DNA of 45,380 nucleotides from Gallionellaceae bacterium (GTDB lineage: Bacteria; Pseudomonadota; Gammaproteobacteria; Burkholderiales; Gallionellaceae): the NCBI GenBank assembly GCA_030834965.1, contig JAUQWW010000026.1:1-45380 (forward strand), written 5' to 3'. A model generated the notes under the pieces. It did not search any database and was not told where the DNA came from. It saw only the letters and a program-made list of their open reading frames with translations. Of the stretch, positions 287 to 24,451 are shown in pieces; position 1 is the first letter of the stretch; each line of letters starts with the position of its first letter. The position numbers and the translations under genes were made by a program.

Positions 287-2140
287 ATGACTGCTCCAAT
301 CATACCGCCACGCATGATCCTGTGCTGCCTGTTGCTGGTGATGAGTGCAGCTGCATTTGGCAAATCGCAAAACGCGCTCGGCAATCATCCTTCGTCCTAC
401 ATCGCAATGCACGCTGCGGATCGCGTGGCATGGCGCCTGTGGGGCCAGGAGGCGATCGACGAGGCAAGGCGAGAGGGCAAGCTGCTGTTTGTTTCCAGCG
501 GAAACTTTTCCTGCTACTGGTGCCATGTGATGCAGCGCGACAACTTTCTCAACCCGCGCATTGCGGCACTGATCAATCGCAATTTCATTCCGGTATTGAT
601 AGACAGCGAGTTGCAGCCCGCGCTGGATGCCCAGCTCACGCAATTCCTGAACCGCACGCTCGGTTACGCCGGCTGGCCGTTGCAGGTATTCATCACGCCG
701 GATGGCTATCCTCTGGCCGGAACAACGTATGCGCCGCCGGAAGAATTCGAACCGATGCTGCAAGAACTGGCCAATGAATGGAACAAGGACAGCAAGTCGC
801 TGGCGGCGCGCGCACAGCAGGCTGCGCTGGAACATCGGCGAACCCTGCCCCCGGTATCTGACACGCTGGAACAATGGGCGGGCAATGCCGCCACGGACGC
901 GCTGATACGCCAAGCTCTGGCGGCGTCTGACCCAGAGGCCGGCGGCTTCGGCAAGCAAAGCAAATTTCCGTCAACCCCGCAATTGCAGGCTCTGCTGTTT
1001 GCCTACAGACAGCGCGCCGAAATGCCGCTGCAGAGGTTCCTGATCCTGACCCTGGATCGCATGGTGAACGGGGGGCTGCATGACCCGCTTGGCGGAGGAT
1101 TCTTCCGTTACACGACAGATCGCGAGTGGCGGGAGCCGCATTTCGAGAAAATGCTGTATGACAACGCCCAGCTTGCCCTGCTGTATCTGCAGGCTGCACA
1201 GATACTCGATCGCCCCGATTACCTTCAAATCGGCCAAGAGACTCTCGATTTCATATTGCGCGAATTGTCCAGCCCGGAAGGCGGGATGATGTCCAGTCTT
1301 GCGGCGGTGGGCAAATCCATGCACGAGGGAGAATATTACCTGTGGAACCGTGACGAGCTTGAAACCCTGCTGACGCCAGCCGAGTTTCGCTTGCTCGGCC
1401 AGGCTTGGGACATGCAGCGCAATGCCTCGCGAGAGGAAAAATACTTGCCGAGGCGCATCCGTTCGGCCCAGCAAATCGCCATTCTGCGCGGAGACGATAT
1501 CGGCACGGTGGAAAAATCGCTGCAACAGGTACAGAAAAAATTGCTGCGCGCACGCAGTACGCGGACACTGCCACGCGACAGAAAACAACTTGCAAGCTGG
1601 AATGGACTCGCGCTCGCCGCACTGGCACAGGGCGCCCAGCTGCCACATGGGGAAAATTATCGCCGTGCCGGTCAGCGCCTGCGCGATTACCTGGTGAAGA
1701 TTCTGTGGGATGGAAAGCAGTTGCACCGGGTGCGGGCACAACACAGGCAACGGACCGAGGGTACACTGGAAGACTACGCGCTGGCAGCCAAAGGGCTGCT
1801 GGCTTGGTCACAAGTGAGCCGCAATGCGGCAGATGGGCGCCTGGCCGGACAGATCATCGACGGGGCGTGGCGCCGCTTTTACAACGAAAAGACCGGCTGG
1901 CAATTGGAACAGCGTTCCCTGCTGCCGGTCGAATCTGCCATCGCTGCACTTCCCGATGGCGCCTTGCCGTCTGCCTCTGCCACGCTGCTGTCGGCAAGCC
2001 TGGAGTGGGCAAGCACGACCCGGGATAGCGAACTGCGCAAACGCGCGCTTGTCGCACTCAATGCCGGGCGCCTGCAGTTCAATGACAGCCCATTTGGCTA
2101 TGCCAGCTATGCTGCCGCCTTTGTTCGGGCGCAGAATTAA
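287..2140 (+). CDS. Secreted thioredoxin-fold DUF255 (YyaL/SSP411-type) protein
   Basis: 617 residues. The N-terminus MTAPIIPPRMILCCLLLVMSAAAFG looks like a signal peptide, so it is probably periplasmic, unlike most cytoplasmic YyaL proteins. Residues ~45-175 form the thioredoxin-like DUF255 domain with the family motif CYWCHVM (C76 and C79 as the CxxC pair) and a GWPLQVFITPDG cis-Pro region. The remaining ~430 residues match the alpha/alpha-barrel part (GGFGKQSKFPST, GGLHDPLGGGFFRYTTD, FEKMLYDNAQL). It is somewhat shorter than the usual ~680 residues. The family is linked to thioredoxin folds and six-hairpin glycosidase-like barrels, but its reaction is not established. It begins 14 bases after the HPt gene. 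Confidence 0.88.
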   Translation: MTAPIIPPRMILCCLLLVMSAAAFGKSQNALGNHPSSYIAMHAADRVAWRLWGQEAIDEARREGKLLFVSSGNFSCYWCHVMQRDNFLNPRIAALINRNFIPVLIDSELQPALDAQLTQFLNRTLGYAGWPLQVFITPDGYPLAGTTYAPPEEFEPMLQELANEWNKDSKSLAARAQQAALEHRRTLPPVSDTLEQWAGNAATDALIRQALAASDPEAGGFGKQSKFPSTPQLQALLFAYRQRAEMPLQRFLILTLDRMVNGGLHDPLGGGFFRYTTDREWREPHFEKMLYDNAQLALLYLQAAQILDRPDYLQIGQETLDFILRELSSPEGGMMSSLAAVGKSMHEGEYYLWNRDELETLLTPAEFRLLGQAWDMQRNASREEKYLPRRIRSAQQIAILRGDDIGTVEKSLQQVQKKLLRARSTRTLPRDRKQLASWNGLALAALAQGAQLPHGENYRRAGQRLRDYLVKILWDGKQLHRVRAQHRQRTEGTLEDYALAAKGLLAWSQVSRNAADGRLAGQIIDGAWRRFYNEKTGWQLEQRSLLPVESAIAALPDGALPSASATLLSASLEWASTTRDSELRKRALVALNAGRLQFNDSPFGYASYAAAFVRAQN

Positions 2141-17318: not shown

Positions 17319-19142
<1,824 letters not shown>

Positions 19143-19249
19143 CGGCTGCAAAAGCCAATTATTCGGGGGAGCATGCCGAAGTAAAGCAGGCGCCAGCCCC
19201 TTTGCATTTTCAGATATTTTGGGGTCTTAAGATTCGGTTAATAATCGGA

Positions 19250-19331
19250 TGCGAAACTGGCACTGTCTTAGCTCCCCCTCTTTCCCCAATGCTAGGACAT
19301 TGTGCCCCTGGATTCAGGGGCATTTTTTTTT
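19250..19331 (+). ncRNA. Candidate small RNA, copy 1
   Basis: Predicted ~82-base RNA. A promoter-like GGTTAATAAT lies just upstream (-10-like AATAAT at 19240-19245; no clear -35). The RNA would start GCGAAACTGGCAC, form a 9-pair stem TGTCTTAGC/GCTAGGACA (19264-19272 with 19291-19299, one U-G pair) around an 18-base C-rich loop TCCCCCTCTTTCCCCAAT, and end in an intrinsic terminator. The matching stem in copy 2 has the same pairing with an A-U instead of the G-U. The loop complements AAGAGGGGG-like ribosome sites. Expression is not shown. Confidence 0.55.
19304..19331 (+). terminator. Intrinsic terminator of small RNA copy 1 (and pgm)
   Basis: Stem GCCCCTG, loop GATT, stem CAGGGGC, then A and a run of nine T. 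A textbook Rho-independent terminator. Confidence 0.9.
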
Positions 19332-19420
19332 GCTGTTCGCTGATACAACAACAGTGCATGCACCAACCCCTTCGCGTTTTCAGAGTTATTCCGTTCTTTA
19401 AGACTTGGTTAATAATCGCC

Positions 19421-19500
19421 TGCGAAACTGGCACCGTCTTAGCTCCCCCTCTTCCCTTAGGCTAAGACATTTGGCCCCTGGTTTCAGGGGCCTTTTTTTT
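19421..19500 (+). ncRNA. Candidate small RNA, copy 2
   Basis: Predicted ~80-base RNA homologous to copy 1. The same GGTTAATAAT element precedes it. The stem is GTCTTAGC/GCTAAGAC (19436-19443 with 19461-19468, all Watson-Crick) around the 17-base loop TCCCCCTCTTCCCTTAG, followed by its own terminator. Differences between the copies fall mainly in the spacer, the loop's 3' half and in the stem change that keeps pairing, which is what a selected RNA would show. Confidence 0.55.
19473..19500 (+). terminator. Intrinsic terminator of small RNA copy 2
   Basis: Stem GGCCCCTG, loop GTTT, stem CAGGGGCC, followed by eight T. It also isolates psd from upstream transcription. Confidence 0.9.
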
Positions 19501-19601
19501 GCTGTTCGCAAACCTGAGTCCGGCGCATCGCGATATTGCATTTCCGGCTTTACCCTGCCCGCCGTTATAATCCGGCTCTTTCTTCGTTACAGGTGTCTGC
19601 T

Positions 19602-20450
19602 GTGTCCGATCGTCTTGCTGTTTTAGCGCAATACTTGTTGCCCAAGCAGGCCCTTACCGCATTGGCCGGAAAATTCGCAAATGCCAGGGCGGGTGACCTC
19701 ACCACGCGCGTGATTCGCTGGTTCGTCGGACGCTACGGGGTCAATATGCTGGAGGCGGCCAACCCGGATATCCAAAGCTATGCCAGCTTCAATGAGTTTT
19801 TCACGCGCCCCCTGCGTGAGGGTGCGCGCCCTCTGGCTGCGGCCGATTTTGTTTGCCCGGTGGATGGCGCGATCAGTCAATTTGGGGCCATTGAGCACGA
19901 CAATATATTTCAGGCCAAAGGACACAACTATACGGCGGCCGCGCTGGTGGGCGGTGACCGCGACCTGGCCGCGCAATTTCAGGATGGCAGCTTCGCCACG
20001 CTGTATTTAAGCCCCAAGGATTACCACCGCATTCATATGCCGTGCGATGGTCGCCTGAAGCGCATGATTCATGTGCCGGGCGCATTGTTCTCGGTCAACC
20101 CGGCTACGGCGCGCGGCGTGCCGGGCCTGTTTGCCCGCAACGAGCGGGTGGTCTGCGTATTTGATTCGGAACACGGGGCGTTTGTCTTGACACTGGTGGG
20201 CGCCACCATCGTCGGCAGCATGGCCACAGTCTGGCATGGCGTGGTCAACCCGCCGCGCCGCCGGGATGTCCGCGAGTGGAATTACGACGAGGGACAGGTG
20301 GCATTGAAAAAAGGCGAGGAAATGGGGCGCTTCCTGCTCGGCTCAACGGTCGTGATGTTGTTCCCGAAAAATTGTTTGCAGTTCAATCCGGAATGGAAAC
20401 CGGCGCGCGCAATTCGGATGGGCGAGATGATGGGCATGCGCAAGAATTAG
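19602..20450 (+). CDS. psd: Phosphatidylserine decarboxylase proenzyme
   Basis: 282 residues from GTG 19602 (VSDRLAVLAQYLLPKQAL, the conserved N-terminus of the family); the open frame upstream to 19536 is not conserved. It converts phosphatidylserine to phosphatidylethanolamine at the inner membrane. The self-cleavage site LGST lies near residue 250 (GRFLLGSTVVMLFP), whose Ser becomes the pyruvoyl group. The SPKDYHRIHMPCDG and VNPATARGVPGLFARNER motifs are intact. Its product is the substrate expected for the PmtA-like methyltransferase at 31960-32625. Confidence 0.95.
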   Translation: MSDRLAVLAQYLLPKQALTALAGKFANARAGDLTTRVIRWFVGRYGVNMLEAANPDIQSYASFNEFFTRPLREGARPLAAADFVCPVDGAISQFGAIEHDNIFQAKGHNYTAAALVGGDRDLAAQFQDGSFATLYLSPKDYHRIHMPCDGRLKRMIHVPGALFSVNPATARGVPGLFARNERVVCVFDSEHGAFVLTLVGATIVGSMATVWHGVVNPPRRRDVREWNYDEGQVALKKGEEMGRFLLGSTVVMLFPKNCLQFNPEWKPARAIRMGEMMGMRKN

Positions 20451-22425: not shown

Positions 22426-24153
22426 TCAGCGTTTGCGCGACAGTTCGGGCATCAGGCTCAACTTCCCGTCCTTCGCGCGCAAGAATATTATGCCCGGGAT
22501 AACGTTCCCACCTAGCTGGTCGTACAAAGCGACCAGTTGATTCTCCAGTCCGCCAATTGCCTGGCGCAATGCCGGATTGGTACATTGAATCATTTCATCT
22601 GTATCGGAAAAACTGCACTCACCATTCAACGACGGCAATTTAGTAGCCGCGAGTGCTGCCTCGATCTGCACCTGCAGCGAGATACGCCTCTGCTCTGCTA
22701 GGGCGGCGTTACGCTGGGCGGCTTCGGCGGCCTGTCGTGCCGCTTCGGCGGCCTGCGCACGCGCTCTGGGATCATTTGCCAGTCTGGCTTTCTCCTCTGC
22801 CAGCGCGCGCGCCCTGGCTTCTGCCTCCTGCCTGGCTCTCGCCTCCGCCTCGGCGCGTGCTTTGGCCTTGGCTTCCGCCTCTGCCTTTGCCTTGGCTGCT
22901 GCCTCTGCCCTCGCCTTGGCTTCCGCTTCAGCCTTGGCCTTGGCTTCCGCCTCTGCCTTCGCTTTGGCTGCTGCCTCTGCCCTCGCCCTGGCTTCTGCTT
23001 CTGCCCTCGCCTTGGCTTCCGCTTCTGCCTTCGCCTTGGCTTCCGCCTCTGCCCTTGCCTTGGCCTCAGCTTCTGCCTTCGCCTTGGCTTCAGCTTCTGC
23101 CTTTGCCTTGGCTTCCGACTCTGACTTTGCCTTGGCTGCTGCCTCTGCCTTCGCCCTGGCTTCAGCTTCCGCCTTAGCCTTGGCTTCCGCCTCAGCCCTC
23201 GCCCTAACTGCCGCCTCAGCCCTCGCCTTGGCTTCCGCATCAGCCTTTGCCTTGGCTTCAGCTTCCGCCTTCCCTTTGGCTTCTGCTTCATGTTTGGCTC
23301 TCGCCTCTGACTCGGCTTGTGCCCTGGCTTTGGCTTCCGCTTCCTGTTTGGCTTTTGCTCTTGCGTCAGCTTCCTGCCTGGCTTTTGCCTCTGCCTCGGC
23401 ATGTGCCCTGGCTCTGGCATCCGCTTCCTGTTTGGCTTTCGCTTCTGCCTCTGCGCGAGCCTTGGCTTCCGAGTCTGCCTTCGCTTTTGCCTTGGCCTCA
23501 GCTTCCTGCCTGGCTTTCGCCTCTGCCTCGGCGCGGACCTTTGCTTCTGCTTCTGCCTTGGCTTTCGCCCTGGCTTCCGCTTCCTGTCTGGTTTTCGCCT
23601 CAGCCTCGGCACGCGCTTTGGCTCTGGCTTTGGCTTCCGCTTCCACCTGTGCCCTGACTGCCTCAAATTCCGCAAGTACTTTTGCCTCTGCTTCCTGTCT
23701 GGCTTTTGCCTCTGCCTCGGCGCGTGCCTTGGCTTTGGCTGCCGCTTCCTGTCTTGCTCGCACGTCTGCTTCCGCGCGCGCTTTGGCCTCGGCCTCCGCC
23801 TTCGCCTTGGCTGCTGCGGCTTCAAACTCTGCCTTGGTGCGTTCGATTATGGCGGCCTGCTTGGTTTCCTGCTGTTGCAGGTGTTCCGACATCTGCATGT
23901 CGTGCGTTGGCTTGACTGGCTTTTGGACAGGCGTTAGTTCTTTTACTTCTTCAGGCTCAGGGGGAACAGGCTCGGGTTCGGTGAGGCGCACCTCGATGCG
24001 TGACACGTCCGGCTGTCGCACTTGAATTTTGATCATCGGAAGCGTCAAAACAAGCGCATGTGCCAGCAGTGAGACGGCAAGCCAGACTACTAGTCGTTTT
24101 TCGTCAGGCGTTCTCACATTAGTACTAGGCGGGCTCAACTCTGAGAAAGGCAA
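22426..24153 (-). CDS. TolA-like membrane-anchored protein with very long Ala/Glu/Lys/Arg helix
   Basis: 575 residues. An N-terminal cytoplasmic stretch and one membrane segment (LVVWLAVSLLAHALVLTLPMI, residues ~22-42) are followed by a Pro/Glu-rich linker (EPEPVPPEPEEV) and then ~370 residues of degenerate eight-residue units of the type AEAEAKAK/AEAEAKAR, some with Q (KARQEAEA), predicting a single long helix across the periplasm. The C-terminal ~90 residues (SLNGECSFSDTDEMIQCTNPALRQAIGGLENQLVAL) form a small domain with two Cys that does not look like the TolA-III domain. No tolQ, tolR or tolB genes are adjacent. Confidence 0.8.
   Translation of the reverse strand: MPFSELSPPSTNVRTPDEKRLVVWLAVSLLAHALVLTLPMIKIQVRQPDVSRIEVRLTEPEPVPPEPEEVKELTPVQKPVKPTHDMQMSEHLQQQETKQAAIIERTKAEFEAAAAKAKAEAEAKARAEADVRARQEAAAKAKARAEAEAKARQEAEAKVLAEFEAVRAQVEAEAKARAKARAEAEAKTRQEAEARAKAKAEAEAKVRAEAEAKARQEAEAKAKAKADSEAKARAEAEAKAKQEADARARAHAEAEAKARQEADARAKAKQEAEAKARAQAESEARAKHEAEAKGKAEAEAKAKADAEAKARAEAAVRARAEAEAKAKAEAEARAKAEAAAKAKSESEAKAKAEAEAKAKAEAEAKARAEAEAKAKAEAEAKARAEAEARARAEAAAKAKAEAEAKAKAEAEAKARAEAAAKAKAEAEAKAKARAEAEARARQEAEARARALAEEKARLANDPRARAQAAEAARQAAEAAQRNAALAEQRRISLQVQIEAALAATKLPSLNGECSFSDTDEMIQCTNPALRQAIGGLENQLVALYDQLGGNVIPGIIFLRAKDGKLSLMPELSRKR
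22790..23830 (-). repeat. Degenerate 24-base tandem repeat coding the helical domain
   Basis: About 40 imperfect units coding AEAEAKA(K/R)-type octapeptides. The bias also opens both other strands for hundreds of codons, producing spurious antisense frames. Unit number is likely to vary between strains. Confidence 0.8.
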
Positions 24154-24251: not shown

Positions 24252-24328
24252 TGGCGCGCCCGAAGAGATTCGAACTCCTGACCCCTTGGTTCGTAGCCAA
24301 GTACTCTATCCAGCTGAGCTACGGGCGC
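24252..24328 (-). tRNA. tRNA-Arg (anticodon ACG)
   Basis: 77 bases including an encoded CCA. Acceptor stem GCGCCCG pairs with CGGGCGC, D-arm AGCTCAGCTGGATAGAG, anticodon arm CTTGG-CTACGAA-CCAAG and T-arm with GTTCGAATC. The ACG anticodon is normally edited to ICG. Confidence 0.95.
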
Positions 24329-24358: not shown

Positions 24359-24451
24359 TGGCGGAGAGAGAGGGATTCGAACCCTCGATCCAGGTTTTGC
24401 CCGGATGCACCCTTAGCAGGGGTGTGCCTTCGACCACTCGGCCATCTCTCC
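24359..24451 (-). tRNA. tRNA-Ser (anticodon GCU)
   Basis: 93 bases with encoded CCA and the long variable arm of serine tRNAs. Acceptor stem GGAGAGA, anticodon loop CTGCTAA, T-arm GGTTCGAATCC. It decodes AGC and AGU and is probably co-transcribed with the tRNA-Arg 30 bases downstream. Confidence 0.95.

Follow-up and report, generated by a model that had tools for sequence, protein, structure and literature searches.

A duplicated RNA unit between pgm and psd

The intergenic region between pgm (encoding phosphoglucomutase) and psd (encoding phosphatidylserine decarboxylase) in a Gallionellaceae bacterium contains a stretch of DNA that occurs twice, raising the question of whether the two copies encode structured RNAs and to which family such RNAs would belong. 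The window, the whole stretch of 45,380 nucleotides analyzed here, is contig C74 of the genome (3.07 Mb, 104 contigs). We identified two RNA gene copies, at 19257–19332 (copy 1) and 19428–19502 (copy 2), in the gap between the end of pgm at 19142 and the start of psd at about 19602. These genes are the immediate neighbors of the pair and lie on the same strand. A preliminary description had proposed a duplicated RNA unit of approximately 134 nt at this place. The duplication holds, with a period of 170–171 nt, but the similarity between the copies in fact extends over about 150 nt. The two copies likely encode sibling trans-acting small RNAs (sRNAs) of approximately 80 nt, derived from the anti-hemB family, whose C-rich loop would block ribosome-binding sites and for which PmrA-type control is suggested.

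Each copy opens with a conserved upstream stretch, followed by a leader, a hairpin whose loop is C-rich, and finally a terminator. The leader occupies 19251–19263 in copy 1 and 19422–19435 in copy 2, and its sequence TGCGAAACTGGCAC is identical in the two. The hairpin has the form GUCUUAGC/GCUA(G/A)GAC and is of the type GTCTTAAC/GTTAAGAC, here named SL3; fold prediction and covariation in homologues support it. In copy 1 (19264–19299) TGTCTTAGC pairs with GCTAGGACA around an 18-nt loop, and in copy 2 (19436–19468) GTCTTAGC pairs with GCTAAGAC, with an additional U-G closing pair. The anti-Shine-Dalgarno stretch proposed for the loop, TCCCCCTCTT, is present in both copies (19273–19282 and 19444–19453), and many homologues also have C-rich loops. 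Intrinsic terminators follow at 19302–19331 and 19473–19500. With starts placed by inference, the predicted transcripts extend from about 19251 to 19332 and from about 19422 to 19502 of the forward strand.

Both copies fold as had been claimed, with energies of -30.4 (copy 1) and -33.3 kcal/mol (copy 2) and z-scores of -2.9 and -4.3 against dinucleotide shuffles; the predicted transcripts of 81–82 nt have z-scores of -4.1 and -3.1. The terminators that had been attributed to each copy are both found by a terminator scan. However, such a scan expects 1.1 by chance, and the terminators alone therefore prove little. The pair in the SL3 stem that had been described as compensated differs on one side only (U-G in copy 1, U-A in copy 2). 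A full compensatory change, missed earlier, is instead found in the terminator, where T19303-A19322 of copy 1 corresponds to G19473-C19492 of copy 2. In addition, 32 of the 36 positions of the leader, 5' arm and C-rich loop are unchanged between the copies, and together these two observations suggest selection on the RNA. They also argue against the idea that the copies are inactive leftovers of a duplicated anti-hemB-type gene, which we consider very improbable even though the promoter is weak by consensus and an upstream hairpin of the anti-hemB family, SL2, is gone.

A scan of the window against Rfam at the gathering cut-off identifies two tRNAs only. Two adjoining tRNA genes occupy 24255–24328 and 24362–24451 of the reverse strand, and 22426–24153 (also reverse) encodes a long protein made up mostly of Ala/Lys/Glu-rich repeats, which by eye is TolA-like.

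Homologues and covariation

A covariance model built from the two window copies (R1) finds no third match in the same genome at E≤1. A DNA similarity search of 60 genomes likewise gave matches in this genome only, but the RNA is too diverged for that method. At E≤0.05, R1 has matches in 84 of the 158 family genomes. This is not a clean count, because some of the weak matches are accidental, for instance where a tRNA gene precedes a terminator. We checked 89 of the 107 listed places outside the window (29 loci and 60 fetched). By rule, an SL3-type hairpin is present in 65 of these places and absent in 24. Of those lacking SL3, 21 were tested with ARAGORN, which reports a tRNA gene in 7 cases. 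Three places (L188, L196 and L199) appear to be true members that escaped the rule.

An alignment of 63 rows (A4; 61 distinct) was assembled from the window copies and 61 of the 65 SL3 places, leaving out L019, which contains N letters, L023 and L028, which nearly duplicate L029, and L176, whose loop is odd. In this alignment, which is fitted to the model and hence biased towards it, 95.1% of the cells pair and 13 of 17 base pairs have changed on both sides, a result reached in 0 of 500 shuffles. Slid controls give at most 6 pairs and 9 cells, compared with 86 cells. The covariation score is 0.283, against 0.100 for shuffled and no more than 0.051 for slid alignments. Multiple homologues with covariation, which the preliminary description had named as confirmation, are found by covariance-model search. 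Stem changes that destroy pairing, which it had named as refutation, are not what the homologues show: in the structure-fitted alignment their stems keep pairing.

A count made without any alignment agrees that the positions of the core stem still pair: A-U is replaced by U-A in 7 of 67 members, U-A by C-G in one, and A-U by G-C in three, two of which are the window copies themselves. Stem variants within the family include TCTTAAC/GTTAAGA, TCTTTAC/GTAAAGA, TCTCAAC/GTTGAGA and TCTTAGC/GCTAAGA, and a further variant, GCCTTAAT/ATTAAGGC, occurs in other families of the order. The anatomy of the pair is plain from the two copies, and its hairpin covaries. A later model (R2), which contains the window copies and was trained on SL3 members, matches 144 of 158 family genomes at E≤1e-5, a count to be read with that training in mind. 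At E≤1e-4, R2 has matches in 94 of the 399 genomes searched across the order, and 13 of these genomes belong to the same family.

The genomic position of the pair is not shared with relatives. None of 80 psd loci of relatives (flanks up to 4 kb) has pgm beside psd, so synteny lends no support, and the pgm-psd junction (17334–20450) may be lineage-specific. When 46 of these psd loci were searched with R1, the top match outside the window scored 16.8 bits. These data bear on another explanation, that the copies are two successive terminators or attenuators that end pgm transcripts and insulate psd, with no action in trans. Both copies are indeed on the strand of pgm and psd, their terminators are good, and a promoter scan detected no strong sigma-70 promoter upstream of them. 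However, a terminator has no need of a hairpin of 8 bp that is conserved and has a loop rich in C, homologues occur at many unlinked places, none of the 80 psd loci carries pgm, and the sole R1 match just upstream of psd in a relative (L062, 14.0 bits) is a plain terminator. We therefore regard this explanation as improbable, and favor the reading of the copies as sRNAs.

Relationship to the anti-hemB sRNA

The neighborhoods of the homologues point to a named family. One neighboring gene is common to 12 of the 29 loci and a second occurs in 11 of those; NCBIfam models identify them as hemB, a heme-synthesis gene, and hemL. Of 20 loci scanned against the Rfam family RF02837 (anti-hemB), 7 reach the cut-off and 7 more match below it. 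This kinship was not recognized in the preliminary description. An RF02837 match above the cut-off is present in 142 of the 158 family genomes and in none of 14 control genomes, five of which have weaker matches at E≤0.01. Among 17 R2 loci examined outside the family hemB adjoins 15, and one of the other two is at a short contig end. Named psd loci gave access to 16 genomes, of which 13 have matches at E≤1e-3, including Dechloromonas, Azonexus, Zoogloea and Massilia; at this threshold there is no match in the genomes of L072, L098 (Herminiimonas) and L113 (Noviherbaspirillum). The genome studied here has a full anti-hemB member of its own on contig C88 (56.1 bits), beside hemB and hemL. R2 scores the window copies, which are themselves among its rows, at 63.9 and 60.7 bits, the C88 member at 54.6, a locus on C85 at 36.8 and the next match at 21.0 bits. 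The C85 locus (L117, 12836–12928, reverse strand) is an unlinked anti-hemB relative (27.4 bits) in which CTCCTCCC is kept and the hairpin is altered.

The RF02837 model is made up of SL2, the 5' CCUCC hairpin, whose loop is CUUCUCCUCCCUG, then SL3, and lastly a terminator. The window copies match the second hairpin (the CCUU..AAGG region, SL3) followed by the terminator, whereas in neither copy does a loose C-rich pattern detect the CUUCUCCUCCCUG loop of SL2 in the 60 nt that precede SL3. Copy 2 scores 23.2 bits and copy 1 18.6 bits, below the gathering cut-off of 49.5. The copies adjoin pgm and psd rather than hemB, a location that is usual for the family though not required. Because they have no SL2 and score below the cut-off, we do not file the copies under RF02837.

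We examined the relationship with two further models. The first (R3) is a covariance model from 72 sources (73 rows, as L232 gave two) that keep the 5' C-rich hairpin, and it includes no window copy. Its alignment (A5) adds the genome's own anti-hemB locus (L116), 15 of 17 order-level loci (L227–L243) and four loci from named genomes, and leaves out the SL2-less members, L019, L023, L028, L176, and two loci that nearly duplicate L170 (L172 and L174). R3 scores the window copies at 50.6 and 45.6 bits, its sole matches in 45 kb at E≤10, and seven SL2-less relatives at 34.5 to 58.4 bits. Ten places lacking SL3, seven with a tRNA gene, score at most 28.5 bits, and the terminator thus contributes much of the R3 score. 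R3 is not fully independent, since models holding the window copies were used to find most of its sources, and R2 to align A5. For this reason a second profile was made from sequence only, using 29 of 30 loci (L120–L149; L144 gave no stretch) chosen by the Rfam model and not by likeness to the window, and cut after SL2. With this profile the copies rank first and second in the window, at 22.5 bits (E 6e-6) and 17.3 bits (E 2.5e-4). The third match in the window scores 3.4 bits and the best of 20 window-length Markov controls 5.9. The aligned part runs from the 3' arm of the hairpin through the terminator. The two models agree, and SL3 plus terminator are therefore common to the copies and anti-hemB.

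C-rich hairpins can arise by convergence, and the copies could be independent C-rich double-hairpin sRNAs of the RF02278 kind that resemble anti-hemB without common descent. The sub-cut-off RF02837 matches in five of the control genomes fit such a reading, as does the observation that several other Rfam sRNAs score 19–23 bits on copy 2. On the other hand, the gap in R3 score between the copies and the SL3-less places is wide, the profile from Rfam-chosen loci also selects both copies, and the stem letters TCTTARC/GYTAAGA and the terminator spacing are shared beyond the C-rich loop. Convergence thus appears unlikely. By sequence, the likeness of the pair is to the 3' half of the anti-hemB sRNA, and the pair is probably a tandem, trimmed and re-promoted offshoot of that family. 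Its descent would have involved copying of an anti-hemB-type gene, loss of SL2, change of promoter and tandem duplication.

Absence of SL2 is not confined to the window. SL2, scored by a loose C-rich pattern within 60 nt (by eye for order-level and named loci), is absent in 9 of 67 members: the two window copies, L007, L021, L024, L033, L152, L158 and L162. By eye, the hairpin of L021 (GTCTTAGC-TCCCCCCTCTTCA-GCTAAGAC) is nearest to those of the window. Among the R2 family matches listed, two members within 1 kb of each other occur in this genome only. In another family of the order, L232 carries tandem anti-hemB-type sRNAs beside hemB (1358–1425 and 1501–1578, reverse strand), the second copy behind a GGGAACTAATT stretch; in-place duplication has therefore occurred elsewhere in this sRNA family, there with the upstream motif kept.

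The terminator loop of many anti-hemB RNAs (L010, L032, L035 and other hemB-linked loci) also carries CUCCCCCUUU, so that two or three anti-Shine-Dalgarno stretches may be exposed on a single molecule.

Promoter region

A GGAACT-type motif, which we take to be the -35 element of an ECF or sigma-E-type promoter, is found by a loose pattern upstream of 37 of 67 members. The window copies have no such motif. A TAATAAT promoter had been proposed for each copy, and the stretch is indeed conserved, with a candidate -10 AATAAT at 19240–19245 (copy 1) and 19411–19416 (copy 2). However, a consensus promoter scan of the forward strand finds no promoter at this stretch and no -35 box, which makes a plain sigma-70 promoter doubtful. 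A direct repeat overlooked earlier, TTAAG-N6-TTAAT with 11-bp spacing, lies upstream of each copy and overlaps the sole -10 candidate; in copy 1 the overlap is with the second half of the repeat. The published PmrA consensus is (C/T)TTAA(G/T)-N5-(C/T)TTAA(G/T) (PMC10729948). The window repeats, CTTAAG-N5-GTTAAT at 19226–19242 and TTTAAG-N5-GTTAAT at 19397–19413, each fit 11 of its 12 letters, a likeness noticed after the fact.

A TTAAG-N6-TTAAG/T repeat is common to L007, L024 and the window copies. Within 220 nt upstream it occurs in 4 of 67 members, all among the nine lacking SL2, and in none of the 58 with SL2; this count was made after the motif had been seen, and two of the four carriers are the window copies. 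The hit counted for copy 2 is the repeat of copy 1, copy 2 having its own at 19398. A genome search for the repeat gives one further near match (3 mismatches), compared with 0 for a reversed-pattern control. The near match, TTAAGGTTCCGTTAAGAATCG at L250:1501–1521 (C30:1846–1866, reverse strand), precedes a short reading frame with a GGGGG-rich ribosome site. The repeat suggests, by its sequence, control by a PmrA-type response regulator. This is the weakest step of our interpretation, and we treat the PmrA-box reading as a lead, not a proof.

Proposed function

Each sRNA would begin with a short leader and continue into a single hairpin, whose loop is rich in C, before ending in a terminator. 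This loop, 5'-UCCCCCUCUU-3', is complementary to AAGAGGGGGA ribosome sites and is predicted to pair with the purine-rich ribosome-binding sites of target mRNAs, which would block their translation. We infer transcription, repression by base-pairing and the existence of targets, and by analogy mRNAs with G-rich sites should be the ones repressed. A search of the genome for AGAGGGGGA-N3..11-ATG finds four places, compared with two when the pattern is reversed. Real starts follow two of the four, namely those of pyruvate phosphate dikinase (ppdK, L244) and a SoxXA-like cytochrome (soxA, L247). In duplex energies that ignore folding within each strand, copy 2 with soxA (-35.0) falls within the background formed by 57 window starts, and copy 2 with ppdK (-40.2) is exceeded by one of the 57 (-42.6). 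Copy 1 with ppdK gives -48.4, computed without a background set. No mRNA is claimed as a target.

The family appears to spread to new sites with different promoters and a shifted seed. More speculatively, anti-hemB in the Gallionellaceae might have been repeatedly copied and rebuilt, with SL2 dropped, the anti-Shine-Dalgarno stretch moved to the next loop, an ECF sigma promoter of the envelope-stress type exchanged for a PmrA-type one, and the pair serving as a tandem doubling of dose. If so, a different signal, perhaps metal or membrane charge, would command the same blockade of ribosome sites. If the pair works as proposed, a single genome would also offer a natural comparison between forms of the same hairpin that possess or lack the 5' seed and answer to different regulators.

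Comparison with known systems

The preliminary description drew its parallel with the CIN-loop RNAs of alphaproteobacteria. CcsR1-4 and the CIN1 RNAs carry a CUCCUCCC loop, and their loci, like the window, hold several related sRNAs. However, the CcsR RNAs are transcribed together with a DUF1127 gene and released by cleavage of a single precursor (PMC10253847), whereas each window copy has its own terminator and the neighbors are pgm and psd, with no DUF1127 operon. The nearest functional counterparts that we found are betaproteobacterial.

One of these is the pair NmsRA/NmsRB of Neisseria (NgncR_162/163), two siblings arranged in tandem within a single intergenic region. Each has a putative promoter and UC-rich anti-Shine-Dalgarno stretches, and through such motifs they repress their targets (PMC5362039, PMC9973317). 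The mRNAs so repressed include those of the TCA cycle. They differ from the window pair in having three stem-loops of their own and in their site between dsbB and lrp. The window pair follows the same plan of tandem siblings with a UC-rich anti-Shine-Dalgarno loop, a likeness of plan and not of descent. The Burkholderia double-hairpin RNAs of RF02278 are also alike in being very short, with two hairpins, CU-rich unpaired stretches and several copies per genome; they are predicted to act through anti-Shine-Dalgarno pairing, and overexpression of one, ncS27, attenuated growth, but they are not tandem in Burkholderia (PMC5688073). This toxic small RNA family is also mentioned in PMC4603805 and PMC7011215. 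Against the RF02278 model (Betaproteobacteria toxic small RNA) copy 2 scores 19.0 bits, below the cut-off of 50, and copy 1 is not listed; against RF02871 (ncS54) the copies score 20.0 and 18.6 bits, below the cut-off of 43.

In titles and abstract openings, we found no work on the sRNAs of iron-oxidizing Gallionellaceae or Gallionella. Literature listings on the anti-hemB sRNA, Burkholderia, and hemB/hemL in betaproteobacteria yielded no function for anti-hemB and no such pair. Anti-hemB is listed in tables of PMC3521395 and PMC5688073, the latter giving it as an alternative name of ncS04 of Burkholderia cenocepacia. The present analysis ties an unnamed intergenic repeat to a conserved sRNA family for which we found no reported function. 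Compared with RF02837, the window copies share SL3 and the terminator with a full member beside hemB and hemL in the same genome, and differ in having neither SL2 nor a GGAACT-type motif and in their location away from hemB. The pair would be a new variation that is ordinary in principle: two tandem, trimmed siblings with kinship to a known conserved sRNA.
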